In this document: positions 35,036 to 51,132 of the stretch, piece by piece
Layout of the letters: the number at the start of each line of letters is the position of its first letter
Numbering within the stretch: position 1 is the first letter of the stretch
Source of the DNA: Caulobacteraceae bacterium
GTDB taxonomy: Bacteria > Pseudomonadota > Alphaproteobacteria > Caulobacterales > Aquidulcibacteraceae
DNA length: 64,000 bases
Direction: 5' to 3'
Assembly: GCA_009773335.1 (NCBI GenBank)
Contig: WRPF01000006.1
Coordinates: forward strand, 29,804 to 93,803
Notes under the pieces: model-generated
Told to the model about the DNA's origin: nothing
The model's database searches: none
Seen by the model: the letters and a program-made list of their open reading frames with translations, nothing else
Position numbers and translations under genes: made by a program

Positions 35036-35947
35036 TTACCGCTCCTTCGGGTCCAGCGCGTCGCGCAGGCCGTCGCCGACGAAGTTGAAGCAGATCAGCG
35101 TCGCAAACATCATCACCGCCGGCCACACGATCATCCACGGCGCGGTGTCCATGTTGTTCGAACCGTCCGCGATCAGCTTTCCCAGCGACGTGAGCGGCTC
35201 CTGCACGCCGAGGCCGAGGAAGGACAGAAAGCTCTCCAGCAGGATCACCCGCGCCACGTTGAGCGTGGCGAACACCACCACCGGCCCCATCAGGTTCGGC
35301 ACGATGTGGCGGAAGATGATCGCCGCACCCGATGCGCCGCCGGCTTTCGCCGCCTCGACGAACTCCTTCTGCCGCAGCGAGATCGTCTGGCCCCGCACGA
35401 TGCGCGACATCGTCAGCCACTCGACCGCGCCAATGGCGATGAAGATGAGCCAGATGTTCGAGCCGAACACGACCATCAGAAGGATGACGAAAAATATGAA
35501 CGGGATCGAGTAGAGGACATCGACGATCCGCATCATGAAGCTGTCGACGCCGCCGCCCACATAGCCCGCCGTCGCGCCCCAGACGACGCCGATCACGAGC
35601 GAAACGGTTGTGGCGACAAAGCCGACCGCCATCGAGATGCCGAGGCCGAACAGGATGCGTGCGAGCAGATCGCGGCCTTCGGTGTCGGTGCCGAGAAGAT
35701 GGCCGGCCGCGAGCGACGGCGCGAGGTTGACCTTGTCGCGAAAGAGCATGTCGACCGGGTGCAATCCGAACAGTCCCGGGTACGCGTAATTCAACAGGCC
35801 GACGATCCCCAGCACCGTGAAGAGCGCAAGCGCCGCCATGCCGACGACGGCCGCCGGGTTGCGCATGAGACGTCGGCGTGCATCGTCCCAGAGCGAACGG
35901 CCCCTGGCGGGCGTTGACGCAAAAGCGTTGGCGGCGAGGTCCGTCAT
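35036..35947 (-). CDS. oppC: Peptide ABC transporter permease (OppC-like)
   Basis: HLLGTDTEGRDLLARILFGLGISMAVGF; EFVEAAKAGGASGAAIIFRHIVPN EAA loop. Confidence 0.88.
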   Translation of the reverse strand: MTDLAANAFASTPARGRSLWDDARRRLMRNPAAVVGMAALALFTVLGIVGLLNYAYPGLFGLHPVDMLFRDKVNLAPSLAAGHLLGTDTEGRDLLARILFGLGISMAVGFVATTVSLVIGVVWGATAGYVGGGVDSFMMRIVDVLYSIPFIFFVILLMVVFGSNIWLIFIAIGAVEWLTMSRIVRGQTISLRQKEFVEAAKAGGASGAAIIFRHIVPNLMGPVVVFATLNVARVILLESFLSFLGLGVQEPLTSLGKLIADGSNNMDTAPWMIVWPAVMMFATLICFNFVGDGLRDALDPKER

Positions 35948-35950
35948 GGC

Positions 35951-36880
35951 TCAGCTCCGCCGCGCGCGTGGATCGAGGACGCTGTAGAGAACATCCGACA
36001 TCATGTTGAAGAACATGATCATGCCCGCGTAGAGAATGACCACGCCCATCACGAGCGTATAGTCGCGCTGCAGGGCCCCGTCCGTGAACAGCTTGCCGAT
36101 GCCGGGCAGCTGGAAGACCTTCTCGATGACGAAGCTGCCGAGAAGCACCGCCGAGATCGCGGGACCCAGATAGCTCACCACCGGCAGCATCGCGACCGGC
36201 AGGGCGTGACGCCAGACCACTTGCGACTCCGGCAATCCCTTCGCCCGCGCGGTGCGTATGGCGTTCGATCGCATCGCCTCGATCATGCTCGCACGGATCA
36301 GCCGCGAGATGATTGCGACCTGCGGCAGCGCCAGCGCGATGACCGGGAGAACGAGGTGGCTGACGGTGTAATGGTCGCGGTAGAGCCCGGACGTCGGCAG
36401 CCACTCAAGCTGCACGCCGAAGACGAGCGAAAACAGCGGCGCAAGCACAAGCGGCGGCAGGCACACCCCTGCAACCGCAAAGCTCATCGCGACGTAGTCC
36501 TCAGGCCGGTTCTGTCGAAGCGCCGCCCAGACGCCGAGACCGGATCCAACGGCGAGCGCGAGCAGCATGGCCGCGCCGCCAATGATGAGACTGGTAGGGA
36601 GCCCCTCCGCGATGATGTCAGCGACGTCCTTGTCCTTGTACTTCATCGACGGCCCGAGGTCGCTTTGAAGCAGGCGCACGACGTAGAGCCGGAACTGTTC
36701 GCCCACCGGCTTGTCGAGGTCGTAGGCCGCCAGCATGCGCTGTTCGATTTCAGCGGAGACCTGGCGTTCCGAACTGAAGGGCGATCCGGGCGCGGCCCGC
36801 ATCAGGAAGAACGCGGCCGCGATGATCACGAACATAGTCGGGATCGCGATCAGCAGCCGTCGGACGATCTGAACGAACAT
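35951..36880 (-). CDS. oppB: Peptide ABC transporter permease (OppB-like)
   Basis: MFVQIVRRLLIAIPTMFVIIAAAFFLMRAAPGSPF; NAIRTARAKGLPESQVVWRHALP. Confidence 0.9.
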   Translation of the reverse strand: MFVQIVRRLLIAIPTMFVIIAAAFFLMRAAPGSPFSSERQVSAEIEQRMLAAYDLDKPVGEQFRLYVVRLLQSDLGPSMKYKDKDVADIIAEGLPTSLIIGGAAMLLALAVGSGLGVWAALRQNRPEDYVAMSFAVAGVCLPPLVLAPLFSLVFGVQLEWLPTSGLYRDHYTVSHLVLPVIALALPQVAIISRLIRASMIEAMRSNAIRTARAKGLPESQVVWRHALPVAMLPVVSYLGPAISAVLLGSFVIEKVFQLPGIGKLFTDGALQRDYTLVMGVVILYAGMIMFFNMMSDVLYSVLDPRARRS

Positions 36881-36989
36881 GCGGTCCTTCCGGTCGTGGA
36901 CGGAGCCGGTCAAGATCGGTCCGGCCGGCCGTTCGACCTTTTCCGGCGGAGCGATCCGTGTCAACGACGCCGGCTCATTGGAGGAACCG

Positions 36990-37421
36990 ATGCCCGACTT
37001 TCGGCGCGTGACGGACGATTTCTATGTCGCCCCCCAGATCGAGGAGGCGGATGTGCGCGCCGCGGCGGCGGCCGGCTTCCGGACCCTCGTGAACAACCGG
37101 CCCGACGGCGAACAGCCGGGACAGTTGCCGAGCATCGCTTCGGAGCGCGCATCGGTGGAGGCCGGTCTCGACTTCCGCGCCATCCCGGTTTCGGGCGATT
37201 CCACGCCTCAGGCGGTGGCGGCCATGCAAGCCGTGCTGCAGGATGCGCCCAGGCCCGTTCTCGCCTATTGCCGGTCCGGCACACGGTCGGTGAAGCTGTG
37301 GGCGATGGCGAGCGTCAAGTCGGGCGCGGTGTCGCCGGAGGCCGCGATCGAGGCCGCGCGCGGTGCGGGATACGACCTGGGGCCGATGGCGGCGACGCTA
37401 CGCGCGCTTCGGAACGCCTGA
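36990..37421 (+). CDS. TIGR01244-family sulfur transferase/phosphatase-like protein
   Basis: FRTLVNNRPDGEQPGQ, VLAYCRSGTRSVKLW. Confidence 0.87.
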   Translation: MPDFRRVTDDFYVAPQIEEADVRAAAAAGFRTLVNNRPDGEQPGQLPSIASERASVEAGLDFRAIPVSGDSTPQAVAAMQAVLQDAPRPVLAYCRSGTRSVKLWAMASVKSGAVSPEAAIEAARGAGYDLGPMAATLRALRNA

Positions 37422-37424
37422 GGG

Positions 37425-37547
37425 TCAGACGCGTACGCCGACGAGCGCCAGCCCAAGGCGGCCAACGGCGATCGCGACCACGGCCAGCACCGCAGTGCGG
37501 CACCGGTCGGTCACGAAAAGCAGCAGGTCAAGGGCCAATGCGATCAT
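37425..37547 (-). CDS. Candidate 40-aa single-TM small protein
   Basis: MIALALDLLLFVTDRCRTAVLAVVAIAVGRLGLALVGVRV; hydrophobic, in an otherwise non-coding gap; weak ribosome-binding site. Confidence 0.3.
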   Translation of the reverse strand: MIALALDLLLFVTDRCRTAVLAVVAIAVGRLGLALVGVRV

Positions 37548-37623
37548 TCTTCCAGGGGATGCAATCCTCACGCCGCTGCGGTGGACGAAGCGGGCCGGCC
37601 CGCGTATGCCGCGCACGTCGTTA

Positions 37624-38583
37624 ATGGCGCGGAACTTCATGGCAGGCATCAACTGGATCAGCGATTTCGATTGGGAGTGGGGGCGCCTCCGGGTCAAGAA
37701 GACCGGAGCGGTTGTGCCGTTCTCGAAAGCCATCCGCAGCGAAGTGCTGACGTGGTTTGAGTTTTACTTCGCGGTCAGACGCGCGCCGCGGGAGCCGGGC
37801 GCACGCTTCACCATCGCCTTTGCGCCGGATCGGCCGCGGCCCTGGTACCTGATCTGGCCCGTCCTCCGGCTCGCCGGCGCACGGTTCACCGATGACGCTG
37901 CGCGCGCGGACGTCGTGATGCAGTTCGAGGATGTGACGCGGCCGGGGCCGGTCGCGCCGCCGGCGCATGCGCGCGGAAGGCTGCTCAACTTCGCGTGCAA
38001 CGACGTGTCCAAGAGCCGGGTGACCGCCGCATTCGAGAAAGCGTTCGGCTATTCGCTCGCCGTCGATCCGGCGACCCACATCGGCGAAGCTGTCGAGAAG
38101 TCGGAGGAGAACGGCGCCCATGATGGTCGCATTGTCATGTGTCCGACATCCGCCAGGGCCGGCTGCGTGTATCAGCGGGTGGTCGACAATCGGGTGGCCG
38201 GGCGTCCCGAACTCGTCGAGGACATCCGCACGCCCACCGTCGGCGGGCGTCCTCCGGTGGTGTTCCTGAAGCGCCGTCGCGTTTCGGAACGCTTCGCCAA
38301 CGCGAACGTCGAGGTTGTGGCGGCCCGGCCGGAAGACGTCTATTCACAGCCTGAACTGGATTCCATCGCTGAGTTCACGCGGCTCCTCGGTCTTGACTGG
38401 GGCGGTCTCGACGTGCTCCGGGACGCCAAAGAGGGGCGACTGTACATCGTCGACGCCAACAAAACGGACATGGGACCGCCGATCGCGTTGCCCCTGGCCG
38501 ACAAGCTTGACGCCACCCGGATCATGGCGCGCGCTTTCCGCGCGTTTGTGACCGGTGCGGCGCAAACCGACCGAGGACACTGA
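37624..38583 (+). CDS. Hypothetical protein with ATP-grasp-like C-terminus
   Basis: LLGLDWGGLDVLRDAKEGRLYIVDANKTDMGPPIALPLADKLDATRIMARAF resembles the metal-binding end of ATP-grasp enzymes. Confidence 0.7.
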   Translation: MARNFMAGINWISDFDWEWGRLRVKKTGAVVPFSKAIRSEVLTWFEFYFAVRRAPREPGARFTIAFAPDRPRPWYLIWPVLRLAGARFTDDAARADVVMQFEDVTRPGPVAPPAHARGRLLNFACNDVSKSRVTAAFEKAFGYSLAVDPATHIGEAVEKSEENGAHDGRIVMCPTSARAGCVYQRVVDNRVAGRPELVEDIRTPTVGGRPPVVFLKRRRVSERFANANVEVVAARPEDVYSQPELDSIAEFTRLLGLDWGGLDVLRDAKEGRLYIVDANKTDMGPPIALPLADKLDATRIMARAFRAFVTGAAQTDRGH

Positions 38584-39495
38584 ATGGCCGTGAAGATCCC
38601 CTTCGTACGCGAAATGGCGTTCGAGTATGGCGTGCCCCAGCAGGTCAGCCCGCTCATTCGCCGCATCGTCGCGAACAATCCCGGCTCGTTCACCTACATG
38701 GGCACCGGCGTCTACATCGTCGGCCACGGCGAGGTCGCTGTTATCGATCCAGGCCCCAACGACAAGGCGCACGTGGACGGCCTCATTGCGGCGCTCGCGG
38801 GCGAAACCGTCACGCACATTTTCGTCACGCACGGCCACATGGACCATTCTCCGGCGGCGCGCCCGCTGGCGGCGGCGACAGGCGCAAAGATATACGCCTG
38901 CGGCGAACCGGTGATCCCGACGGACTCCGAGGTCCGCATGGAAGCGGGAGACGATCTCTCGTTCCGCCCGGATGTCGAGATCGAGGACGGACAGGCATTC
39001 AAGGGCGAGGGCTGGACCATTGAAGCGGTCTCCACGCCTGGCCACACGTCGCATCACACGGCCTACGCTCTGAAGGAAGAAAACGCGCTCTTCCCGGGCG
39101 ACCACATCATGGGCTGGTCGACAACGGTCATCAGTCCGCCGGACGGCGACATGAACGATTATTTCGACAGTCTCGTGAAAGTTCGCGACCGCGACTACGA
39201 CGCGCTCTGGCCGACGCACGGCCCGCCGATCAAGGACAATGTGCGTGAATTCGTGCAGGCTTACATTGATCATCGCATCGCGCGCGAAGAGCAGATTCTT
39301 GAGCAGTTGCGCCAGGGCCGCAAGACGATCCGCGACATGGTTCCGGTAATGTATGCCGACGTCGACAAGAAGCTGCATCCCGCAGCTTGCCACTCCGTGC
39401 TCGCGCACATGATGCGGCTGGTGAAGATCGATCGCGTCGACTGCATCGGCGCGCCATGCATCGACTCGATCTACGCACTGGCGAAGAGCGCGTAG
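38584..39495 (+). CDS. MBL-fold metallo-hydrolase
   Basis: HIFVTHGHMDHSPAARPLA, TPGHTSHHTAYAL, FPGDHIMGWS. Confidence 0.92.
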   Translation: MAVKIPFVREMAFEYGVPQQVSPLIRRIVANNPGSFTYMGTGVYIVGHGEVAVIDPGPNDKAHVDGLIAALAGETVTHIFVTHGHMDHSPAARPLAAATGAKIYACGEPVIPTDSEVRMEAGDDLSFRPDVEIEDGQAFKGEGWTIEAVSTPGHTSHHTAYALKEENALFPGDHIMGWSTTVISPPDGDMNDYFDSLVKVRDRDYDALWPTHGPPIKDNVREFVQAYIDHRIAREEQILEQLRQGRKTIRDMVPVMYADVDKKLHPAACHSVLAHMMRLVKIDRVDCIGAPCIDSIYALAKSA

Positions 39496-39502
39496 CGCGT
39501 GG

Positions 39503-40057
39503 CTATTGCGCCCGTCTGACGCGCAGGGCGCGGCCGCCGGCCTCCACCGACATCAGGAAGCTGCCGAGCGCCGCCTTGCGGATCGTGACGTCCACGCCGG
39601 GTCTGGCCAGGCGGTTGTCGCTGGTGTCGACAAGAACCCAGACCTGCCCGTTTTCCATCACGAAGGATGAGCGTCCGTCGAAGCGGCCGAGTCTGGCGAT
39701 CTTCATCGACTGGGAGTCGAAGCCGTCATCCGATCCCGGCTCTTCGGACGAGCGCCGGAATGTCGGTAGACCCAGTTGCGGCAAGCTCGGCAGGGAAAAG
39801 CCGAAAGATTCCCGCTGGATCTGGCGAGCGCGGGTGGCGTCGACGGCGGCGAACTGCCCCTCGGATTCCGCCGATTTCAGGCTGGCCACTTCGGCGTCGA
39901 AGCAGGCAAGGCGCGCCTGCGGCTCGGTCAGGGCGGTGCAGGCGTAGACCTTGGCCAGCACCTCAGGCGATGACCTGGGGGCCGGCGCCGCCTGCTGGGC
40001 GGCGGCCGTTCCGGCGCAGGCCAGAACCGCGACAAGCGACATGAATAGCGAACGCAT
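39503..40057 (-). CDS. Hypothetical exported protein
   Basis: Signal peptide MRSLFMSLVAVLACAGTAAAQ; ACTALTEPQARLACFDAEVA motif. Confidence 0.75.
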   Translation of the reverse strand: MRSLFMSLVAVLACAGTAAAQQAAPAPRSSPEVLAKVYACTALTEPQARLACFDAEVASLKSAESEGQFAAVDATRARQIQRESFGFSLPSLPQLGLPTFRRSSEEPGSDDGFDSQSMKIARLGRFDGRSSFVMENGQVWVLVDTSDNRLARPGVDVTIRKAALGSFLMSVEAGGRALRVRRAQ

Positions 40058-40135
40058 GAGCCTCTCCCCGAAATCGACGGCGCACTCTAGTGTCTTCCAG
40101 CTGGATGTCAGCCTACGCTTTCAGCGGCCGGTGGA

Positions 40136-41758
40136 GTGCATGCGATGACCTGGACGACGAACCGGCGAACCCTGATCGGCGCGGGGGGCGCGGCGGCGCT
40201 GACCGCGGGCTGTGGCGGATCGGTGATCGGCCTGGATGTCGAGCGGCGCATCCTCGACATCGGCAACCAGGCCGAGCCGCTGTCCCTCGACCCCCACAAG
40301 GCCTCGGGCCAGTGGGAGAACCGCATCATTGGCGAGATGTTCACGGGGCTGACCACCGAGGACGCCGACGCGAAGCCGGTCCCCGGCATGGCCGAGCGAT
40401 GGGAGGTGAGCGAGGACGGGCTGACCTGGACGTTCTACTTGCGCCGCGCGCAGTGGTCGGACGGCATGCCGTGCACGGCCTACGACTTCGAGTACGCCTT
40501 CCGCCGGATTCTCAGTCCCAGGACCATCGCCGAGTACGCCCAGGTCACTTATGCGATCAGGAACGCCCAGAAGGCCAAGGAGGGCGCGGTCCCCGTGGAG
40601 GAGATCGGCGTGCGCGCGCTCGACGAACGGACGCTGGAGATGACGCTTGAGCATCCAGCGCCATATTTGCCCGGCCTCCTCAAGCACTACACACACTTTC
40701 CCGTGCCCAAGCACGTGGTGGAGAAATACGGCGACGACTGGATCAAGCCCGCGAACATCCAGGTCAACGGGCCGTTCAGGCTGGAGAAGTGGTGGTCGAA
40801 CTACGTCGTTCACCTGGTCAAGAATCCGCGCTTCTTCGACGCCCGCAACGTCGCCTTCAACGAACTCTACTTCTATCCGACGTACAACGACGACGCCGCC
40901 GTCCGGCGCGTCATGCGCCGGGAACTCGGCTGGAGCAGCAATTTCTCAGGCAAGAAGCAGGCGCTCTACGAGAAGGAGCTGCCCGGCTTCGTCCGCGTCG
41001 CCCCGTTCATGTTGCTGCAGTATTTCTCGCTCAACAACACCAAGCCGCCCTTCAACGACCCCCGCGTGCGCAAGGCCATGTCGATGGCCATCGACCGCAG
41101 GTTCATGGCCGAGCAGATATGGCAGGCGGGGCACCAGCCGGCCTGGTCCTTCGTGCCGCCGGGCATCTTCGGCTACCCGCAGGGCGGGCGCATCCAGTTC
41201 GCGGACATGGATATGGACCTGCGCCGCGCGGCGGCGAAGGCGCTCCTGGAGGACGCTGGCTATGGTCCGAACAACCCGCTGCGCTTCACCTTCGAGCACC
41301 GCAACACGGCCGACAACCCGCGGATCGCGGTCGTCGCCCAGGCCGATTGGCGCTCCATCGCCCCATGGGTGGAGGTGAAGCTGTTGGGCGTGGAGGGGCA
41401 GATCCACTACGCCAACCTGCGCTCGAAGAACTACGAGGCGGGAGACGGCGGCTGGATCGCCGACTACAACGACGCCTACACCTACCTCTTCCTGTTCGAG
41501 ACCCGGACCGGGCCGCAGAACTACACCGGCTATTCGAACCCGTCCTATGACCGCCTCATGGAGGCCTCGGTCCAGGAGCGCGACATCGACGCCAGGGCGG
41601 GCCTCATGCGGCAGGCCGAGCAGCTCATGCTGGACGAATCGGCCTGCATCCCGGTGGCCTTCGGCACCTCCAAGAACCTCGTCGACCCCCGGATTCGCGG
41701 TTTTGTGAACAATCTGGAGGACATCCACCGCACCCGCTGGATGTCGATCGAGGCCTGA
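40136..41758 (+). CDS. oppA: Peptide ABC transporter substrate-binding protein (OppA-like)
   Basis: Tat/lipobox-like N-terminus; AEPLSLDPHKASGQWENRIIGEMFTGLTTEDADAKPVPGMAERWEVSEDGLTWTFYLR (SBP family 5). Confidence 0.9.
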   Translation: MHAMTWTTNRRTLIGAGGAAALTAGCGGSVIGLDVERRILDIGNQAEPLSLDPHKASGQWENRIIGEMFTGLTTEDADAKPVPGMAERWEVSEDGLTWTFYLRRAQWSDGMPCTAYDFEYAFRRILSPRTIAEYAQVTYAIRNAQKAKEGAVPVEEIGVRALDERTLEMTLEHPAPYLPGLLKHYTHFPVPKHVVEKYGDDWIKPANIQVNGPFRLEKWWSNYVVHLVKNPRFFDARNVAFNELYFYPTYNDDAAVRRVMRRELGWSSNFSGKKQALYEKELPGFVRVAPFMLLQYFSLNNTKPPFNDPRVRKAMSMAIDRRFMAEQIWQAGHQPAWSFVPPGIFGYPQGGRIQFADMDMDLRRAAAKALLEDAGYGPNNPLRFTFEHRNTADNPRIAVVAQADWRSIAPWVEVKLLGVEGQIHYANLRSKNYEAGDGGWIADYNDAYTYLFLFETRTGPQNYTGYSNPSYDRLMEASVQERDIDARAGLMRQAEQLMLDESACIPVAFGTSKNLVDPRIRGFVNNLEDIHRTRWMSIEA

Positions 41759-42073
41759 AGGCCAGGACACAGCGAAGCTGGGGGCGAATTTCGCCCGCGC
41801 AGGGCCCCGAAGAGGGCAGATTGGGGCGTCTGCGGGAAGCGATGTTCCTTTTTCGCCACAGTTGGCCCTATTCGGGTAAGTTTCTGTCCACCTTTGTTGA
41901 CTGCGATGTGACGGGTTTGCGATTAATGGATCAAGAACGGGAATGGTAAATTCCTGGTTCGCTCGTGTCTTGTCCTTTCGGGGGGGCAGGATGGGGCCGG
42001 GTTTCGGGGGCGAAATATGTCTCCAATCTGGCGTCCAAGCGAGCGAGGACTGATTCGGATTTGGAGGTTCACA

Positions 42074-45070
42074 GTGAAGCAAGACACAAAACGCGATCGT
42101 CTGTTCGCGACGACGTTCTTCGCGGGCTTGGCGCTTGCCATGCCGGCGGTGGCTCAGCAGGCCACGACCCCGGCGGCGCCGGAGGAAGAGACCGACGCGA
42201 TCATCGTTACGGGCTCGCGCATTCCGCAACGCAACCTTGAGACAACCAACCCGATCACCCAGTTGACCGCCGAGGATCTTTCGATCCAGGGCGCGACTCG
42301 CGTCGAGGATCTGACGAACCAGCTGCCGCAGGTGTTCGCCACGCAAGGCTCGGCGGTCGCCAACGGCGCGTCCGGCACGGCGGAAGTCTCGCTGCGCGGC
42401 CTCGGCGCCGGTCGTACGCTGGTCCTGATCGACGGCGTCCGCATGCCGTACGGCTCCGACACCAGCTCGGCGGCTGACTTGAACACGATCCCGGGCGCGA
42501 TGATCGAACGGGTCGAAGTGCTGACCGGCGGCGCGTCTGCGGTCTACGGTTCGGACGCCGTGTCCGGCGTCGTGAACTTCATCATGCGCGACAACTACGA
42601 AGGTCTGCGCGTTGACGCCCAGTATGGCTTCTATCAGCACGAGAACGACACGGACCAGGGCGATCTGCGCAACACGATCCAGCGGCGCGGGACCACCAAC
42701 GCGGCCCAGTTCCGCCTCCCCGACGACAGCGTCGTGGACGGCTACGGCAAGGAAGTCTCGCTGATCTTCGGCGCGTCCTCGCCGGACGGTCGCGGCAACG
42801 TGACGGCCTACGCGACCTACCGGACCAACGATGCGGTTCTGCAGAAAGACCGCGATTATTCGGCGTGCTCGCTCGGCGCGGGCCTGAACGGCGTCAACCG
42901 CGACGGCACGAACATCGCCAACAGCCGTCCCGGACAACCGGCCAACACGCTCTACACTTGCGGCGGTTCAGGCACGAGCTATCCGGGTCTGTTCCTGACG
43001 CAAACGGGCAACTTCACGATCGACACGACGACCGGCAACACGTTCCGGCCGTTCGCCAACGCGACCGATCAATATAACTTCGGCCCGCTCAACTACTACC
43101 AGCGCCCGGATGAGCGCTATGCGTTGGGCGCCTTCGCGCACTACGAAATCAGCGACAACATCGAAGCCTACGCCCAGTTGATGTTCTCGAACTACAAGTC
43201 GACCGCGCAGATCGCGCCGTCGGGGAACTTCTTCAGCACGGCGACGCTCAATTGCGGAAACCCGCTGTTCGGACCGGGCATGGCCACGGCGTTCGGCTGC
43301 TCCGCCGCAGACATCGCGGCTGACACCCCGGTCTCGGCCTACATCGCGCGCCGGAACGTCGAAGGCGGCGGTCGTCAGGACACGTTCGACAACACCTCGT
43401 ATCGTATGGTCACCGGTCTTCGTGGCGATCTCGGCGAGTCTGGTTGGAGCTACGATGTCACGGCGATGTACGCCAAGACCGACAGCTCGCGGGCGTATCT
43501 CAACGAGTTTTCGGTCACCCGCCTGACGCGTGCCCTCGATGTGGTCGACACGGACCCGGGCGCGGGCGTGACGGCTGCATGCCGTTCGGCCGTGAACGGA
43601 ACGGATACCGCTTGCGTGCCGTGGAACGTCTTCCAGATCGGCGGCGTGACACAGGCGGCGCTGGACTATCTGCAAGTGCCGCTCCTGCGCACTGGCGAGA
43701 CGGAGCAGCAGATCCTCACGGCGTCGGTCGCTGGCGCCCTCCCGATCACCTCGCCGTTCGCCGAAACGCCGATCTCGTTGGCGTTGGGCATCGAGTATCG
43801 TCGCGACTACATGGAACGGATCACTGACGTGTCCTTCCAGACCGGAGACGGCGCTGGTCAGGGCGGTCCGACGCTCGGGTTCAAGGGCGCGGCGAACGAC
43901 GTGACCGACCTGTTCGCGGAAACCCAGATCATGGTCGCCGAGAACCAGCCGTTCGCACATCAGATCTCGATCGATGCGTCGTACCGGCACTCGTCCTATG
44001 GAACGGGCACCAAGACAGAGACCTACGGCTTCGGCGCCGACTGGGCGCCGGTCGAGGACATCCGGTTCCGCGGAAGTTATGCGCAAGCGGTGCGGGCGCC
44101 GAACATCATCGAACTGTTCTCGGCGCAAGGTCCGGGTCTGTTCGACATGGCCGACGACCCGTGCGACCAGAACGACCCTGCCAGCGACGGCATTGCGCCG
44201 GCCGCCGCGTGCATCGGCGCCAATCCCTGGCAAACGACGCTCGCGAACGCCTCGTCGGCGACGTTCAGCAGCCCTGCCGGCCAGTACAACGGCCTGTTCG
44301 GCGGCAACCCGAATGTCGGCGCCGAAGAAGGCAAGACGAAAACCTATGGCTTCGTCTTCCAGCCGAGCATGATCGAGGGGCTGAGCCTTTCGGTGGACTA
44401 CTTCGACATCGAAGTGACCAACCTGATCAGCAACGTCGGCGCCGCGACGACGGTTTCACGTTGCTTCTCGGCGACGCCGAACCTCGCATCCTGCGCCCTG
44501 ATCACTCGTAACCCGAACAACGGCACGCTGTGGCTCGGGGCGGGCATCGTGTCCGACCTGCAGCAAAACACGACCGGCGCGCTGACCACGTCAGGCTATG
44601 ACTTCAACGCCGCCTACAACTTCGATATCGGCAGCCTCGGCGGGATGAGCGTCTCGCTGCTGGCGACCAAGCTCGAAGAATACAACGGCGGATGCGAAGG
44701 CCTCTATGGCGCGGGTCTCTGCGGCACGCCGAACCCGGAATGGCGCGGTCGTTTCCGCGCCACCTGGACGACGCCGTGGGATCTCGAGCTGAACGGCACG
44801 ATCCGGTACTTTGGTTCAGTCGACTACGCGGGCACGACGGCGACTACTGCGCCGGACTACTCGCTCGACTCTCAGACGTACCTGGATATCGCCGGCAACT
44901 ACCAGATGTTCGACAACACGCGGTTCCGGGCAGGCATCAACAACGTCCTCGACCGGGAGCCGCCGCTGTCGCGCTTCACGGGCGCGGGCTTCGGCAACGG
45001 CAACACCTACCCGCAAGTCTACGACGCGCTGGGTCGTTGGGTGTTCATGGGCATCACGGTCGACTTCTAG
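42074..45070 (+). CDS. TonB-dependent receptor
   Basis: IIVTGSRIPQRNLETTNPI, plug domain LRGLGAGRTLVLIDGVRM…VEVLTGGASAVYGSDAVSGVVNFIMRDN, terminal aromatic residue …VFMGITVDF; GTG start inferred. Confidence 0.93.
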   Translation: MKQDTKRDRLFATTFFAGLALAMPAVAQQATTPAAPEEETDAIIVTGSRIPQRNLETTNPITQLTAEDLSIQGATRVEDLTNQLPQVFATQGSAVANGASGTAEVSLRGLGAGRTLVLIDGVRMPYGSDTSSAADLNTIPGAMIERVEVLTGGASAVYGSDAVSGVVNFIMRDNYEGLRVDAQYGFYQHENDTDQGDLRNTIQRRGTTNAAQFRLPDDSVVDGYGKEVSLIFGASSPDGRGNVTAYATYRTNDAVLQKDRDYSACSLGAGLNGVNRDGTNIANSRPGQPANTLYTCGGSGTSYPGLFLTQTGNFTIDTTTGNTFRPFANATDQYNFGPLNYYQRPDERYALGAFAHYEISDNIEAYAQLMFSNYKSTAQIAPSGNFFSTATLNCGNPLFGPGMATAFGCSAADIAADTPVSAYIARRNVEGGGRQDTFDNTSYRMVTGLRGDLGESGWSYDVTAMYAKTDSSRAYLNEFSVTRLTRALDVVDTDPGAGVTAACRSAVNGTDTACVPWNVFQIGGVTQAALDYLQVPLLRTGETEQQILTASVAGALPITSPFAETPISLALGIEYRRDYMERITDVSFQTGDGAGQGGPTLGFKGAANDVTDLFAETQIMVAENQPFAHQISIDASYRHSSYGTGTKTETYGFGADWAPVEDIRFRGSYAQAVRAPNIIELFSAQGPGLFDMADDPCDQNDPASDGIAPAAACIGANPWQTTLANASSATFSSPAGQYNGLFGGNPNVGAEEGKTKTYGFVFQPSMIEGLSLSVDYFDIEVTNLISNVGAATTVSRCFSATPNLASCALITRNPNNGTLWLGAGIVSDLQQNTTGALTTSGYDFNAAYNFDIGSLGGMSVSLLATKLEEYNGGCEGLYGAGLCGTPNPEWRGRFRATWTTPWDLELNGTIRYFGSVDYAGTTATTAPDYSLDSQTYLDIAGNYQMFDNTRFRAGINNVLDREPPLSRFTGAGFGNGNTYPQVYDALGRWVFMGITVDF

Positions 45071-45095
45071 TCGAACGGATCACCAGAAACTGGAG

Positions 45096-45125
45096 AGCGG
45101 CGGGCCACTGGTCCGCCGCTTTTCT
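45096..45125 (+). terminator. Intrinsic terminator after the TonB-dependent receptor
   Basis: agcggcgg-gccactggt-ccgccgct followed by tttt. Confidence 0.8.
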
Positions 45126-45170
45126 TTTGTCGCGGTCGTCGGCAGCGGCCTTCGATGGCAAGACGTCCGC

Positions 45171-45226
45171 CCGTGGCGTTTGGCCCGTGGCGTTCCGCCC
45201 GCGACGTTCGGCCCGTGGCGTTCGGC
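45171..45226. repeat. Four-copy 14-bp tandem repeat
   Basis: ccgtggcgtttggc / ccgtggcgttccgc / ccgcgacgttcggc / ccgtggcgttcggc at 45171, 45185, 45199, 45213. Confidence 0.85.
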
Positions 45227-45345
45227 CACGTTGGCGGAACCGGCGCAGACCGGTTTGCTGTGCACCGCCATGGCGATCGCAGCGGAAGCGGCTCAGATGG
45301 TTTCACGCGGGCCGCACTTGAGCCGACAAGGCGGGAGAGGAAACG

Positions 45346-46014
45346 ATGATTCTCGAAATCAAGGACCTTTTGACACCCGAAGAGTTGATCCGGTTGCAGG
45401 GGCTCGCCAAATCCGTGCGGTTTGTCGACGGGCGGGCGACCAACCCAGGGTTCGGCCAGAAGGTGAATCTGCAAGCGGACCCGAACGATGCCGCGACCGC
45501 GGAGGTTTCAAAGCTGGTCAACGCCGCGCTGGCCCGCTCGCGGGAATTCGTGGATTTCGCGTTGCCGAAGAAGATCGCTCCGCCATTGCTCGCGCGCTAC
45601 ACCCCGGGAATGCAGTACGGGCCGCACGCCGATGCCGCGCTGTTGCCGATGCCGAAGGGCCCGCTGCGTTCCGACGTCTCCGCCACCGTGTTCCTGAACG
45701 ACCCTGCGACGTACGAGGGCGGTGAACTGGTCCTGCATTTCGGCGCACGCTCTATCGCGATGAAGGCGCCGGCCGGCGGCGCGATCGTCTACCCTTCAAC
45801 AACCCTCCATGAAGTGGCGCCTGTGCGCTCCGGCGAACGGCTCGTTGTGATCACATTCATCGAGAGCTTCGTTGTCGATGAGCATCATCGCTCCATCTTG
45901 TTCGAGCTTGGCGAAGTGAGCGCGCTTGAGGGCGAAAAAATGCACTGGGCAAGCCGCATGCGGCTTGAGGTTGTACGTCAGAACCTCACGCGGCGGTGGT
46001 CGTCAGGCCAGTAG
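45346..46014 (+). CDS. PKHD-type Fe(II)/2-oxoglutarate hydroxylase (PiuC/YbiX-like)
   Basis: MQYGPHADAALLPMPKGPLRSDVSATVFLNDPATYEGGEL; VYPSTTLHEVAPVRSGERLVVITFIES (HxD…H…R). Confidence 0.92.
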   Translation: MILEIKDLLTPEELIRLQGLAKSVRFVDGRATNPGFGQKVNLQADPNDAATAEVSKLVNAALARSREFVDFALPKKIAPPLLARYTPGMQYGPHADAALLPMPKGPLRSDVSATVFLNDPATYEGGELVLHFGARSIAMKAPAGGAIVYPSTTLHEVAPVRSGERLVVITFIESFVVDEHHRSILFELGEVSALEGEKMHWASRMRLEVVRQNLTRRWSSGQ

Positions 46015-47061
46015 CAATCTCCCGACGACTGGCGATCTTTGCGCAACCGCGTCGATCCACCGAAGCCCTCGTTGGATTTCCTCGGCATTCCGCCTTCTGG
46101 AATCTTCCAGTATCTGTGAGCGAATTTGTGGCGAATATGGCTCTGCGGTCGCTTTGGCATAGCGGGTGAAGACCTCATGTTGCGTGATGCGCTCCACATG
46201 ACCCGGCGGCGCCACAACATCGAAATGTTCAAGAACTGCGCGGAGGCATTCCGCCGGGCTCATCAGCAGCTTTTCAAAATCGATAGCCAGTACGCGCCCC
46301 GCCAAAGTCTGGACGCTCTCATGCTGGGAGAGAGTCTCTACTGTCCAGGTGAGTGCGGCGAGCTCGCCAAGGGTCAAGGTGTGAAGAGGTGCAATCGGGA
46401 CTCCAGCCAGAGTTTGCAGTCTGCCGATGCGCTCGGGGCCGTGTCCGCGCAAGTCCGTGGGAGAATTGGCTCCGGCCAGCAGTGTCGAGAGAAATGGCTC
46501 TGCAGCTAGGTTGAGATAGACTGCTTTCGCCGTCGGTCGCAGCTGCATCAGCCAAGGCGCCAACCGCCCAGTTGCACTGGTGGCTTTGACGATTACCGCG
46601 CGGGTGTCTTCGTACCCTCTGCTCCAGAGCACCATCTGGTCCAGCGCCAGCTGGTCGAGAGTGGAAGGCGCAATGAGGGCTTGCGCCCGATCCCGAACAT
46701 CGTGGGCCTCCGCCAGCGTTCGCAACGGCATCGGCTCCCGAACGGCGACCGTCGCCCCGGCGCTTTCGATCATGCGGCTGAGCAGTGTCGATCCGACATG
46801 ACCGGTGTGGAAGATGAAGTGCAGGGGCAGGGCCGGGCTGGCCGGCGCCAAAATGCGACGCAGAGATGACAATTGAACCCATTTGCCGCGTGTCCCGGTC
46901 GCCAGGACCCTGTCGTCCAGAAAGCTCGCCTCGCGAATGAGGGCGCGGCTTAGCTCGACAATCAACACCCGCTCAATGTTGAGGTCGAGTTTGTGGGCGA
47001 ACAAGTCCGGCCGGAGCAACAGATTCTCGAGGGGATTGAACGCGATGTCGGGATCGGTCAT
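46003..47061 (-). CDS. P-loop sulfotransferase-like protein
   Basis: LHFIFHTGHVGSTLLSRMIESAG (5'-phosphosulfate loop-like); C-terminal region resembling PAPS sulfotransferases. Confidence 0.7.
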   Translation of the reverse strand: MTDPDIAFNPLENLLLRPDLFAHKLDLNIERVLIVELSRALIREASFLDDRVLATGTRGKWVQLSSLRRILAPASPALPLHFIFHTGHVGSTLLSRMIESAGATVAVREPMPLRTLAEAHDVRDRAQALIAPSTLDQLALDQMVLWSRGYEDTRAVIVKATSATGRLAPWLMQLRPTAKAVYLNLAAEPFLSTLLAGANSPTDLRGHGPERIGRLQTLAGVPIAPLHTLTLGELAALTWTVETLSQHESVQTLAGRVLAIDFEKLLMSPAECLRAVLEHFDVVAPPGHVERITQHEVFTRYAKATAEPYSPQIRSQILEDSRRRNAEEIQRGLRWIDAVAQRSPVVGRLLLA

Positions 47062-47187
47062 GTCCGCTGAAGTCCCCAATAGCGACTGGGTCTGCCGGAG
47101 GTCGCGGTGGTCAAGTGCTCCGGCGCGGACCATGAATTCCTTGGTGCATCCCGGTGGCATCCTCGAATATGGCGGGCTCGCAGCCTG

Positions 47188-48306
47188 TCAATCATTCCAG
47201 GCTTGCCGACCATTGAATTCGTCAATTGCTTCACACAAGGCGATGAACCCGAGTCTTTCGTCCTCCGGGATGTCTGGGCGCCAGATATCGAATATGAGGA
47301 TAGTTCGGTCTTCGTCAGACTTGTTCCATGCCTCGTGGTCGATCGTGTCGTCGAAAACCCACGCCTTTCCCTGTTCCCACACGCGTGTCTCGTTTCCAAC
47401 CCTGAAGGCGCAATGCTGGTTGGTTTTGACAGCCAGATGACAGATGAGGCGGGTGTTGATCATTCCCGTGTGTGCTGGAATGTGTGCGCCGGGCGTCAAA
47501 CGCGAGAAGAGGACCGCCGGAGTTCGGTTCGGAATCGCGGCCAACGGAGCGTTGCTCAGGGCGGCCATGGTGTTGGGGCACCGATCCGCGCCAACTGTTC
47601 GGGCGCCTTCCTTCATGAGAAAGAAGGCGGTCCAGGCGCTATTGTCGACAAGCCCGCGCTGGGATGACGGGGGACGTTTCTGATCGTGCACAACGTACGG
47701 CGCGAAGTCAGCACCTTCAGCGATCAAGGCATCCAGTTCTGCACGAATGTCCGGATACGCAGCTTCGACAGCGTCAAGGAATGGAAAGTCCTTGCGGTCA
47801 AAGAACTGGATCGGAGCCAGTTCAGGGTAGTAGAAGTAGCGAGGTTCTTGTGCGTAGGCTCGGGCCTTGCCCACGAGCACCTCGATTGCGCGCGAAAAGC
47901 GAGGCGGCGCTTGCTTCGGGCCGAACCCGCGCAGTTCCATCGCCGTGCGAACGTATTCCTCGAATGCCTGTGAATACCTGCGCACCATTTCCCGCGCCCG
48001 AACGACTTCGCTGTTCCACTCAGGCCTGACGGATGCGGCCGGCAACCGTGCGACGGCAGCGTAGAACGCAGTAGCGGCGCGTGGGTCCCCTTGTTTGAGC
48101 AAATGATCGGCCTTCATCATGAGGGCGGTCACGTTTCGCGGTTCCAGCGACAAGGCGTGGTCAATTGCGGCAAGGGCGCCCAAAATGTCTCCGTTGTCGG
48201 CTCGTGCACGCGCCTGGCTCAAGGATTCCTGAACATAAACCGGTGCTAAGTTCGCCACGCTGCCGTGTGTTCCGGCTGAATCATTTTGGGAAGGGTCGGA
48301 CATCAT
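47188..48306 (-). CDS. TPR-containing aspartyl/asparaginyl beta-hydroxylase domain protein (copy 1)
   Basis: TPR-like N-terminus; HIPAHTGMINTRLICHLAVK…CAFRVGNETRVWEQGKAWVFDDTIDHEAWNKSDEDRTILIFDIWRPD. Confidence 0.9.
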   Translation of the reverse strand: MMSDPSQNDSAGTHGSVANLAPVYVQESLSQARARADNGDILGALAAIDHALSLEPRNVTALMMKADHLLKQGDPRAATAFYAAVARLPAASVRPEWNSEVVRAREMVRRYSQAFEEYVRTAMELRGFGPKQAPPRFSRAIEVLVGKARAYAQEPRYFYYPELAPIQFFDRKDFPFLDAVEAAYPDIRAELDALIAEGADFAPYVVHDQKRPPSSQRGLVDNSAWTAFFLMKEGARTVGADRCPNTMAALSNAPLAAIPNRTPAVLFSRLTPGAHIPAHTGMINTRLICHLAVKTNQHCAFRVGNETRVWEQGKAWVFDDTIDHEAWNKSDEDRTILIFDIWRPDIPEDERLGFIALCEAIDEFNGRQAWND

Positions 48307-48459
48307 GGTGGCCTTCTGAAGCAGTCAGTCTGTGGCCTTGAAGACTATATAGAAACGCGGGCTAGTCTTGGAACAGCGAACGGTTGGCCTTTCGTCGCTG
48401 TGACAGTATTCTAGCGTTCGCCAGGGGCACAATGCAGCTAGGGGCTGCAGGGACGGATA

Positions 48460-49953
48460 TTGGGATTCGCAGTGGTTTCTGACCAGGAACTTGGCGCGAT
48501 GCTCCGCGCCGCAGGCGCCCTTCGGCAAGCCGGGCGTTTGGCCGAAGCGGAGAGCCTCTATCGGCGGATACTCTCGTTCCGTCCCGATCTCCCCGATTGC
48601 TGGTACAATTTGGCTTGGACGCTCCGCCGACTGGGTCGGTTCGAGGAGGCGCTCGCGGCCTATCAGCAGGCGCTGGACCACAGCGTCGCCAGCCCGGAAG
48701 AGGTGTTCCTCAACCGGAGCGTCATCCTCATGGACGAACTCCACCGTTACGACGATGCGGAGCGCGATCTGCGTGCAGCGCTTGCCCTCAATCCGCGCTA
48801 TTCGCCGGCATTGCTCAACTTGGCCAACCTTCACGAGGATCGGGGCGCGCGTGGCAAGGCGCTTCAAGTCTATGAGAAGTTGCTTGAGGTCGATCCACTG
48901 TGTTGGGATGGGCTGGCGCGATACGCGACACTGAAGGGAGCCGAGGCGCCAGACGCGCCGCTACTCATCGACAGACTCAATGATGCGCTTTCGCGAACCG
49001 ACATCGCCACGGCTGATAGAGCGAGCATCGCCTTTGCGCTTGGCGGCGTGCTCGACAAGTGCGGCGCTCATGAAGCGGCGTTTGACGCGTTCGCGCAGGC
49101 AAATCGGTTTAGCCGGCGTAGCGCGTCGTCTGCCGTGGCTCTGTATGATCGCAAAGCGCACGAGGCGCGCACAGAAGCCTTGATGTCGGCCTTTCAGGAT
49201 CGTTTCTCATCGGCCACGCCGGAACCTGCCGTATCCGCACCAATCTTCATTTGTGGCATGTTTCGGTCTGGATCGACGCTTGTCGAACAGGTGCTGGCGA
49301 GCCACCCGCGCGTTACCGCCGGCGGCGAAATCAACGTCTTGCCTGCATTGGTTGGAGCGCACCTTTCGCCTTTCCCGGCGAGAATGACCAGCCTTGACGA
49401 TGGCCAGCGTCACGATCTTGCGAGAAACTATCTGGAAGCCGTTAAGGCCAAATATCCCGAAGCCGACATCCTCACTGACAAACGGCCGGACAACTTTCTC
49501 TACGTGGGCCTCATCAAGACCTTGTTCCCTGACGCAAAGATCATCCACACGGCAAGAAACCCACTCGACAATTGCTTGTCCGTGTTCTTTCTCCACCTCG
49601 ATCCAGGCATGAGCTATGCGCTGGATATCTTGGATACCGCGCACTATCTGCGCGAGTGCCGTCGTCTCATGACGCACTGGAAAAGCCTCTACGGCGACGA
49701 CATCATCGATTTCGACTATGATGAATTCGTGCGGGAGCCGCGGCCCGCACTTGAGCGGTTGCTCGCGTTTTGCGGTTTGGACTGGGACGAGCGATGCATG
49801 TCGTTTCACGATCGTCCCGCGATCGTGAAGACGGCGAGCGTCTGGCAGGTGCGCGAGCCGCTGTATCAGCGTTCCTCAGGCCGGTGGCGAAGATATTCCA
49901 GTCGTCTGGGGCCGCTTCGCGAATATTTTTCTGACATCGCGCCAGAGGATTAG
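48460..49953 (+). CDS. Tetratricopeptide repeat-containing sulfotransferase
   Basis: N-terminal TPRs (AEAESLYRRILSFRPDLPDCWYNLAWTLRRLGRFEEALAAYQQAL); APIFICGMFRSGSTLVEQVLASHP (5'-PSB); IIHTARNPLDNCLSVFF (3'-PB); TTG or downstream GTG start. Confidence 0.92.
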   Translation: MGFAVVSDQELGAMLRAAGALRQAGRLAEAESLYRRILSFRPDLPDCWYNLAWTLRRLGRFEEALAAYQQALDHSVASPEEVFLNRSVILMDELHRYDDAERDLRAALALNPRYSPALLNLANLHEDRGARGKALQVYEKLLEVDPLCWDGLARYATLKGAEAPDAPLLIDRLNDALSRTDIATADRASIAFALGGVLDKCGAHEAAFDAFAQANRFSRRSASSAVALYDRKAHEARTEALMSAFQDRFSSATPEPAVSAPIFICGMFRSGSTLVEQVLASHPRVTAGGEINVLPALVGAHLSPFPARMTSLDDGQRHDLARNYLEAVKAKYPEADILTDKRPDNFLYVGLIKTLFPDAKIIHTARNPLDNCLSVFFLHLDPGMSYALDILDTAHYLRECRRLMTHWKSLYGDDIIDFDYDEFVREPRPALERLLAFCGLDWDERCMSFHDRPAIVKTASVWQVREPLYQRSSGRWRRYSSRLGPLREYFSDIAPED

Positions 49954-49965
49954 TCGATCGGGCTG

Positions 49966-51132
49966 TCACGCGCCCATGTTGTACTCGTTCAGCGCGAGCG
50001 TCATCTCCGCCACCATGGCGCGCTCGGCTTCGGTGATCAACGGATTCCACACATCGAAGATCAGCACGGCGCGCAACTGGTCGCTGTCGTTCCAAGCCTC
50101 GTGTTCGACAGTGTCGTCGAACACAAAGCTCTCGCCCATGATCCACGGCCGCGTGTCGTTGCCGACGCGGAATCCGCAGTTGTCGGGGATGATGAGCGGC
50201 AGATGTGCGATCAGGCGTGTATTCGACGAGCCCGTGTGCGGCGGAATGCGCGTGTGCGGCTGCAGCACCGATATCATGGCTGTCGGCGCGAAACCCGGCT
50301 GGTCCGCCATCGGGATGGTGTCGAGGATCGCGGTCGTTCTCGGGAACGCCACGCAGTTTTCCAGATTCTTCCTGCCGTCGCGCCACAGGTGCAGCGTCGA
50401 CCAGTCGGGTGAGTGGTTCAGCGCCTTCCACTGGGCCAGGGGCGCACCCGCAGGATGCTGCACATAGGGATGGAACTTGTCCCAGTACGCCTTCAGCTTT
50501 GCGACCACCTCATCGCGGATCACGTCGGTCTGTGCCTCGATCGCGGCCATCCACGGGAAGTGACAGCGATCGTAGAACGTCAGCGGCGGCAGCTTCGGGA
50601 ACGTCAGGAAGAGCGGTTCCTGCACGTAGGCCTTCTTCGCGCCGGACAAGATGTCGAGACATTCGTCAAAGCGCGACAGGTCCGTTCCGGCGAACGTGGC
50701 GCGGGCGGATGCAGTGCGTGCGCGCAGGAACGCGTTCAGGGCGAGCGTGTTCTTCTCGACCACATCACGCGCGTGGGCGACGACCGCACGCAATTGCGCG
50801 GGCAGCGCTTCGTCGGGCGGCGCGATTTTCAACACGTTGCGATAGATTTTCGCGGCCTCGCGCGGCAGGTCGGTCTGCTCCAGGAGCGCGCCCTTCGAGA
50901 GAAGGCCGAGCAGCGAATACGGGTCCAGCGTCAGGGCCGCATCGAGCGCCTTCATCGCGCCGACAAGGTCGCCGCCCATGCGCAGGGCGAGCGCCCGGTT
51001 CAGGGGGATTTCGATATAAACCGGGTCGAGCGCAGCCGCCTCGTCGAGGAGCTGCAGCGCGCGCGCGGCATCGCCAGCGCGCAATGCAACCATGGCGTCG
51101 CCCAGAAGCGCCTTGGATCGCGGATCTGACAT
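49966..51132 (-). CDS. TPR-containing aspartyl/asparaginyl beta-hydroxylase domain protein (copy 2)
   Basis: HTRIPPHTGSSNTRLIAHLPLIIPDNCGFRVGNDTRPWIMGESFVFDDTVEHEAWNDSDQLRAVLIFDVWNP; TPR-like N-terminus. Confidence 0.91.
   Translation of the reverse strand: MSDPRSKALLGDAMVALRAGDAARALQLLDEAAALDPVYIEIPLNRALALRMGGDLVGAMKALDAALTLDPYSLLGLLSKGALLEQTDLPREAAKIYRNVLKIAPPDEALPAQLRAVVAHARDVVEKNTLALNAFLRARTASARATFAGTDLSRFDECLDILSGAKKAYVQEPLFLTFPKLPPLTFYDRCHFPWMAAIEAQTDVIRDEVVAKLKAYWDKFHPYVQHPAGAPLAQWKALNHSPDWSTLHLWRDGRKNLENCVAFPRTTAILDTIPMADQPGFAPTAMISVLQPHTRIPPHTGSSNTRLIAHLPLIIPDNCGFRVGNDTRPWIMGESFVFDDTVEHEAWNDSDQLRAVLIFDVWNPLITEAERAMVAEMTLALNEYNMGA

Follow-up and report, generated by a model that had tools for sequence, protein, structure and literature searches.

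A receptor and five enzymes at one locus

The window analysed here is a stretch of 64,000 nt of contig WRPF01000006.1, from the Caulobacteraceae bacterium assembly GCA_009773335.1 (host genome 4.0 Mb). At positions 42074–51132 it carries six adjoining genes, one for a TonB-dependent receptor (TBDR) and five for enzymes of candidate hydroxylation and sulfation chemistry, several of them fused to tetratricopeptide repeats (TPRs). All six open reading frames (ORFs) named in an earlier reading of the sequence, hereafter the original prediction, are present at this place, and the family assignments of all but ST1 are supported by Pfam and NCBIfam.

42074–45070, plus strand: TBDR with a signal peptide, a plug domain (PF07715), a barrel domain (PF00593) and several conserved Cys pairs
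45346–46014, plus strand: PKHD/YbiX/PiuC-type Fe(II)/2-oxoglutarate (2OG) oxygenase, above the cut-off of NF003974 and matching PF13640
46003–47160, minus strand: ST1, a probable divergent sulfotransferase with a sub-threshold match to PF13469 and TPST1/TPST2 as best fold match
47188–48306, minus strand: AH1, an oxygenase joining TPRs to an AspH-type domain (TPR-AspH; PF05118, 152 bits)
48460–49953, plus strand: TST, a TPR-sulfotransferase (PF13469, 141 bits, and TPRs)
49966–51132, minus strand: AH2, a second TPR-AspH oxygenase (PF05118, 142 bits) whose predicted model resembles human AspH

The PKHD gene begins 275 bp after the TBDR gene on the same plus strand and meets the ST1 gene tail-to-tail, with their ends overlapping by 12 bp. 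AH1 precedes ST1 by 27 bp, both on the minus strand, AH1 and TST diverge across 153 bp, and AH2 is tail-to-tail with TST. The host genome encodes approximately 28 TBDRs and three PF13469 proteins, TST among them, and AH1 and AH2 are its only two matches to PF05118. Because these sole PF05118 matches sit together here, and because the set recurs in other genera, the grouping of the six genes is not due to chance. A signal peptide, judged by eye, is present in the receptor, and none was seen in any of the five enzymes. Elsewhere in the host genome, its second TPR-sulfotransferase (L185, contig C77:20001–40000) is encoded immediately upstream of another TBDR.

Recurrence beside TonB-dependent receptors

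The original prediction proposed that the combination may recur in related genomes, and named a lack of co-localisation in relatives as one result that would refute it. Gene-neighbourhood comparison did not refute it and shows that the enzymes do recur around TBDRs in other genera. Eighty loci were found through the AspH alignment, and 76 of them contain a called AspH gene. A TBDR of this group is located within four genes of the TPR-AspH gene in 42 of the 76 loci, and in 25 both the receptor and another enzyme of the toolkit are nearby. Loci that combine TPR-AspH with a TBDR span Caulobacterales, Sphingomonadales and several gammaproteobacterial groups, such that the original restriction to Alphaproteobacteria was too narrow; genera among the AspH loci include Phenylobacterium, Brevundimonas, Sphingomonas, Haliea, Chromatocurvus, Peristeroidobacter and Luteimonas. 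A larger set is found in genome G001, where the TBDR is accompanied by PKHD, ST1, a Sulfotransfer_2 protein, a TPR-sulfotransferase, a TPR-fused PF13759 oxygenase, a TPR-less AspH, AH1, TST and AH2. Related receptors are flanked by subsets of this toolkit in five other genomes (G012, G021, G017, G011 and G077).

For the TPR-sulfotransferases, 40 PF13469 loci with high scores were sampled within the order; they are not independent (16 fall in one receptor cluster). A TBDR is the immediate neighbour in 33 and lies within two genes in 36. Twenty-seven of the 33 immediate neighbours share the strand of the sulfotransferase gene, mostly at a distance of 20–130 bp. For comparison, 20 arbitrarily placed 20-kb segments from the same set of relatives contain only 3 TBDRs among 372 genes. 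The PF13759 oxygenases represent a third TPR-fused class, with a TBDR no more than three genes away in 13 of 20 cases. Thus, each of these three classes of TPR enzyme adjoins TBDRs far more often than the background rate, and co-localisation of the enzymes with TBDRs, across two proteobacterial classes and a third TPR-enzyme type, is strongly supported.

The association also extends to receptor type. Pairs drawn from the TPR-sulfotransferase and AspH loci span 14 receptor clusters, and subfamilies of receptor and sulfotransferase are matched non-randomly, with correlated pair distances (Mantel r 0.51, against 0.12 at best in 999 permutations), a correlation that partly reflects shared descent. 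Where a genome encodes a receptor relative scoring at least 490 bits, a strong AspH match is present in 24 of 27 cases; in the remaining genomes it is present in 26 of 74 (Fisher p 1e-6, with no correction for phylogeny).

Two genes upstream of the receptor bear on this relationship.

39503–40057, minus strand: SPP, a small Sec-exported protein of 184 amino acids (aa) with a C-x11-C-F-D motif and no Pfam family, a probable receptor partner
40136–41758, plus strand: oligopeptide-type solute-binding protein (SBP_bac_5; PF00496, 251 bits), a context gene

A natural experiment is provided by G002, a genome of the same genus as the host that is rated complete. G002 retains the upstream peptide-binding protein (80% identity) with a TBDR directly after it. 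The N-terminal region of that TBDR is similar to the host receptor (∼39% over the first 200 residues), and its barrel is 23% identical; receptors in five same-family genomes that keep the enzymes are 50–56% identical to the host receptor. No match to PF05118 or PF13469, and no SPP, was found anywhere in the G002 genome. Because a different TBDR occupies the site in G002 and both the AspH and the sulfotransferase family are missing there, the enzyme set tracks receptor barrel type and not genomic site.

The host receptor ORF spans 42017–45070 on the plus strand, with the conserved signal peptide beginning at the GTG at 42074. Its conserved Cys pairs are 522–533, 716–732, 816–826 and 893–902, numbered from the ORF start at 42017. 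The protein scores far under every NCBIfam cut-off (62 vs 223.5 bits for TIGR01783, for example) and is not of the Fiu/PiuA siderophore type. Orthologues of the SBP_bac_5 gene are present in G001 and G002, and this gene adjoins a TBDR even where the enzymes are absent. Oligopeptide-type ABC permeases and the binding protein (PF00496, PF00528) occupy positions 35036–41758 of the window, next to the receptor, and are retained in G002. Given this adjoining transporter, the ligand of the receptor may be a peptide. An untranslated leader block, TTTTTGTGGGGAGCGGCCG or close variants, is conserved upstream of the receptor in Phenylobacterium and relatives (L066, L112, L122, L125, L133 and L138) and was not seen in the window. 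A shared promoter element of these receptors was rejected as a candidate, as it was seen only in a Phenylobacterium-like subset.

Enzyme families and the small exported protein

The TPRs of AH2 score above Pfam cut-offs and those of AH1 below them. The predicted model of AH2 (pLDDT 92.9) has visible TPR helices, and its ten best solved matches in Foldseek are structures of the TPR and oxygenase domains of human AspH, covering most of the chain (∼375 columns, E 6e-19). The global TM-score to human AspH is 0.49, a value that points to a different relative placement of the two domains; for the isolated catalytic domain (5apa) the score is 0.84 by target length. In human AspH, H679 and H725 are Fe ligands, and R735, S668 and H690 are 2OG residues (PMC12816917). 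These five correspond to H299, H344, R354, S288 and H310 of AH2, and are invariant in 12 aligned proteins. Most of the AH2 length is matched by only 2 of 41 records in a plasmid collection. An SppA-like signal peptide peptidase (PF01343) is encoded in 21 fetched loci (L045, L041, L066, L077, L110, L129 and others), often adjoining the TPR-AspH gene.

The catalytic domain of TST aligns to TPST with matches in the P-loop (RSGST) and the GGE and DKRP motifs, and tyrosylprotein sulfotransferases are among its closest solved relatives by sequence. A conserved Glu and a conserved Lys of TST are presumably equivalent to the TPST catalytic residues. Evidence for ST1 is divided. Its score against Sulfotransfer_3 (PF13469) is 20.4 bits, under the 27-bit cut-off. 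However, the top fold matches of its AlphaFold2 model (pLDDT 83) are sulfotransferases, with TPST1/2 first (TM-scores ∼0.4–0.57). ST1 also carries a P-loop-like GHVGSTL motif, and its E142 and K192 are invariant. Given the modelled fold, the original description of ST1 as a P-loop sulfotransferase-like protein is probably right, though the protein is divergent.

The PKHD protein scores 199 bits against NF003974 (the PRK05467 group; cut-off 143). A different YbiX/PiuC-type oxygenase is encoded beside a TBDR (784-aa frame) elsewhere in the host genome (L155, contig C265 near 52368), and this pair may be the host counterpart of the Caulobacter CciT-CciO system considered below.

SPP, an exported small protein that accompanies these receptors, was left outside the coordinates of the original prediction. 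It is encoded in 24 fetched loci of Alpha- and Gammaproteobacteria, mostly adjoining a TBDR or AspH gene, and in 0 of 20 random loci and 0 of 40 TPR-sulfotransferase loci. Within the order it is found in 86 of 101 genomes, usually as a single copy and often beside a TBDR, and is missing from G002. The family motif is C-x11-C-[FY]-D, in which the Cys loop is invariant and is directly followed by an invariant Asp; the C-terminal region has invariant Gly, Trp and Arg residues. SPP has no Pfam match and no relatives among PDB structures, and its Cys motif is similar to that of VasI proteins.

Candidate substrates and known counterparts

TPRs are typical peptide-binding repeats. Their presence on three unrelated catalytic domains, together with nearest relatives that modify proteins, suggests that the substrate is a polypeptide. 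The receptor is a candidate because it is the constant polypeptide of the loci, and SPP is a second because it also follows these receptors. The original prediction saw no obvious precursor peptide, in agreement with our comparison, over 63 loci, of the small ORFs (22–140 aa) that lie close to the enzyme genes, among which none is conserved across genera; the candidates tried had matches among close relatives only and a non-coding look.

We favor a reading, with a probability of roughly 0.4, in which the newly made receptor or SPP is hydroxylated and sulfated by a dedicated cytoplasmic kit before export. An extended polypeptide would be gripped by the TPR arms that the AspH-type oxygenases and the sulfotransferase carry, while the catalytic domains would hydroxylate and O-sulfate its side chains. 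The target would most likely be the newly made receptor, or SPP, ahead of Sec export, and the finished receptor might need the added groups, or be tuned by them, for ligand binding or gating. A need of a TBDR for a cytoplasmic oxygenase has precedent, because the Caulobacter TBDR CciT strictly requires the cytoplasmic PiuC/YbiX-type oxygenase CciO (PMC12004947). More tentatively, the loci could reflect a general, as yet undescribed modification system for outer-membrane proteins, in which cytosolic TPR enzymes with interchangeable AspH, sulfotransferase and PF13759 modules on TPR arms of a shared type act on the TonB receptor chain prior to export.

Several observations weigh against the favored reading. 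Thirty-four of the 76 AspH genes are not near a TBDR of this group, many AspH genes of Brevundimonas and Caulobacter stand alone, and five of the seven TPR-PF13759 genes that lack a nearby TBDR are in a common housekeeping locus without one. The association between receptor Tyr columns and presence of the TPR-sulfotransferase is weak and confounded by descent. Receptors paired with the enzymes are richer in Tyr, acidic-Tyr and Asp/Asn, differences that are significant but confounded by clade. In 12 of 12 aligned proteins the residues equivalent to human AspH R688 and Q627, which lie next to the substrate (PMC12816917), are replaced by Ile/Leu/Val and Ala/Ser/Thr, respectively. An EGF-type Asp/Asn substrate is therefore not implied for AH1 and AH2 by their sequences; with the cofactor residues invariant and these two replaced, AH2 probably works like AspH but on another substrate. 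The comparisons show the gene content, its recurrence, the adjacency of receptor and enzymes, the conserved cofactor residues, the predicted folds and the lack of a conserved precursor gene, whereas enzymatic activity, a protein substrate, the receptor as that substrate, timing and purpose are all inferred. The hydroxylation and sulfation of a surface protein, receptor or ligand that was originally proposed draws support from the recurring TBDR neighbourhood and the protein-modifying type of the enzymes, and its chemistry and target remain inferences.

Two further observations concern the same sequences. Among 79 receptor Tyr columns compared with presence of the TPR-sulfotransferase or TPR-PF13759 gene, the best (p 0.0002) lies in what is probably a barrel strand, and was rejected because descent confounds the association. 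The housekeeping neighbourhood of TPR-PF13759 (L273, L274, L275, L278 and L279) encodes RarA-like, RluC-like and ATP12-like proteins and a carboxylase subunit.

The enzymes might instead make or process the ligand of the receptor, a peptide or siderophore-like compound that is hydroxylated and sulfated in the cytoplasm before release, or transformed after import. We consider this less likely than the favored reading, but it is the main rival, and a serious one because the authors of the CciT study propose ligand-based models for CciO (ligand synthesis, inhibitor removal or ligand oxidation), and because CciT protein is made even without CciO (PMC12004947), both points that also count against receptor modification. 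Models of this kind have been proposed for CciT-CciO and PiuA-PiuC, and the PKHD protein belongs to the YbiX/PiuC group; the adjoining oligopeptide-type transporter would likewise fit a peptide ligand. However, that transporter stays beside a TBDR in G002 without the enzymes, the recurring neighbours include no biosynthetic or export family, and the small ORFs offer no precursor conserved across genera. Sulfating an imported nutrient would also make little catabolic sense.

It is improbable that SPP or another secreted protein is the true substrate with the receptor merely its partner or exporter, although the distribution of SPP beside TBDR and AspH genes in two classes, its absence from both control samples and, along with the enzymes, from G002, and its invariant Cys loop with the invariant Asp after it all speak for that account. 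Many of the 86 genomes with SPP lack AspH, such that SPP tracks the receptor more than the enzymes, and the VasI-like Cys motif argues against a hydroxylation-specific motif. An arrangement by genome organisation alone, with unrelated pathways, would accommodate the use of both strands, a gene order that is not strictly kept and the location of nearly half of the TPR-AspH genes elsewhere. Nonetheless, the adjacency statistics, the recurrence across classes and the joint absence in G002 make this explanation very improbable.

Receptor modification as favored here can be set beside known systems. Human AspH (ASPH) likewise carries TPRs and a PF05118 oxygenase on a single chain with the same Fe and 2OG residues, but the AH proteins differ at R688 and Q627 and have no visible signal or membrane anchor. 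TPST1/2 share the conserved P-loop of TST and are closest to ST1 by fold, whereas TST carries fused TPRs and is predicted to be cytosolic. RaxST is a bacterial sulfotransferase with a precursor peptide, RaxX; unlike in that system, no precursor peptide gene was found beside the sulfotransferase here among the small ORFs of the 63 loci. In CciT-CciO, as in PiuA-PiuC and Fiu-YbiX, a TBDR gene is followed by one for a cytoplasmic YbiX/PiuC-group Fe(II)/2OG oxygenase, as in our window. However, the receptor here is ∼1000 aa and not a Fiu/PiuA siderophore receptor, and the locus adds TPR-AspH enzymes and two sulfotransferases.

No description of a TBDR with a TPR-sulfotransferase or TPR-AspH was found in the literature searched, which took in few subscription papers or preprints. 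In Caulobacter, a functional link of this sort, joining a TBDR to an oxygenase of the cytoplasm, was recently demonstrated for CciT-CciO. To this the present loci add three further TPR-fused enzyme classes tied to TBDRs, two of which are related to protein hydroxylases and tyrosine sulfotransferases of eukaryotes, and they suggest that some receptors, or their cargo, need chemical modification to work. If it is the receptors that are modified, a covalent maturation step, of which no description was found, would be required for uptake by some TBDRs. Receptor modification of this kind would be categorically new; otherwise, the loci would represent a variation on the known partnership between TBDRs and oxygenases.

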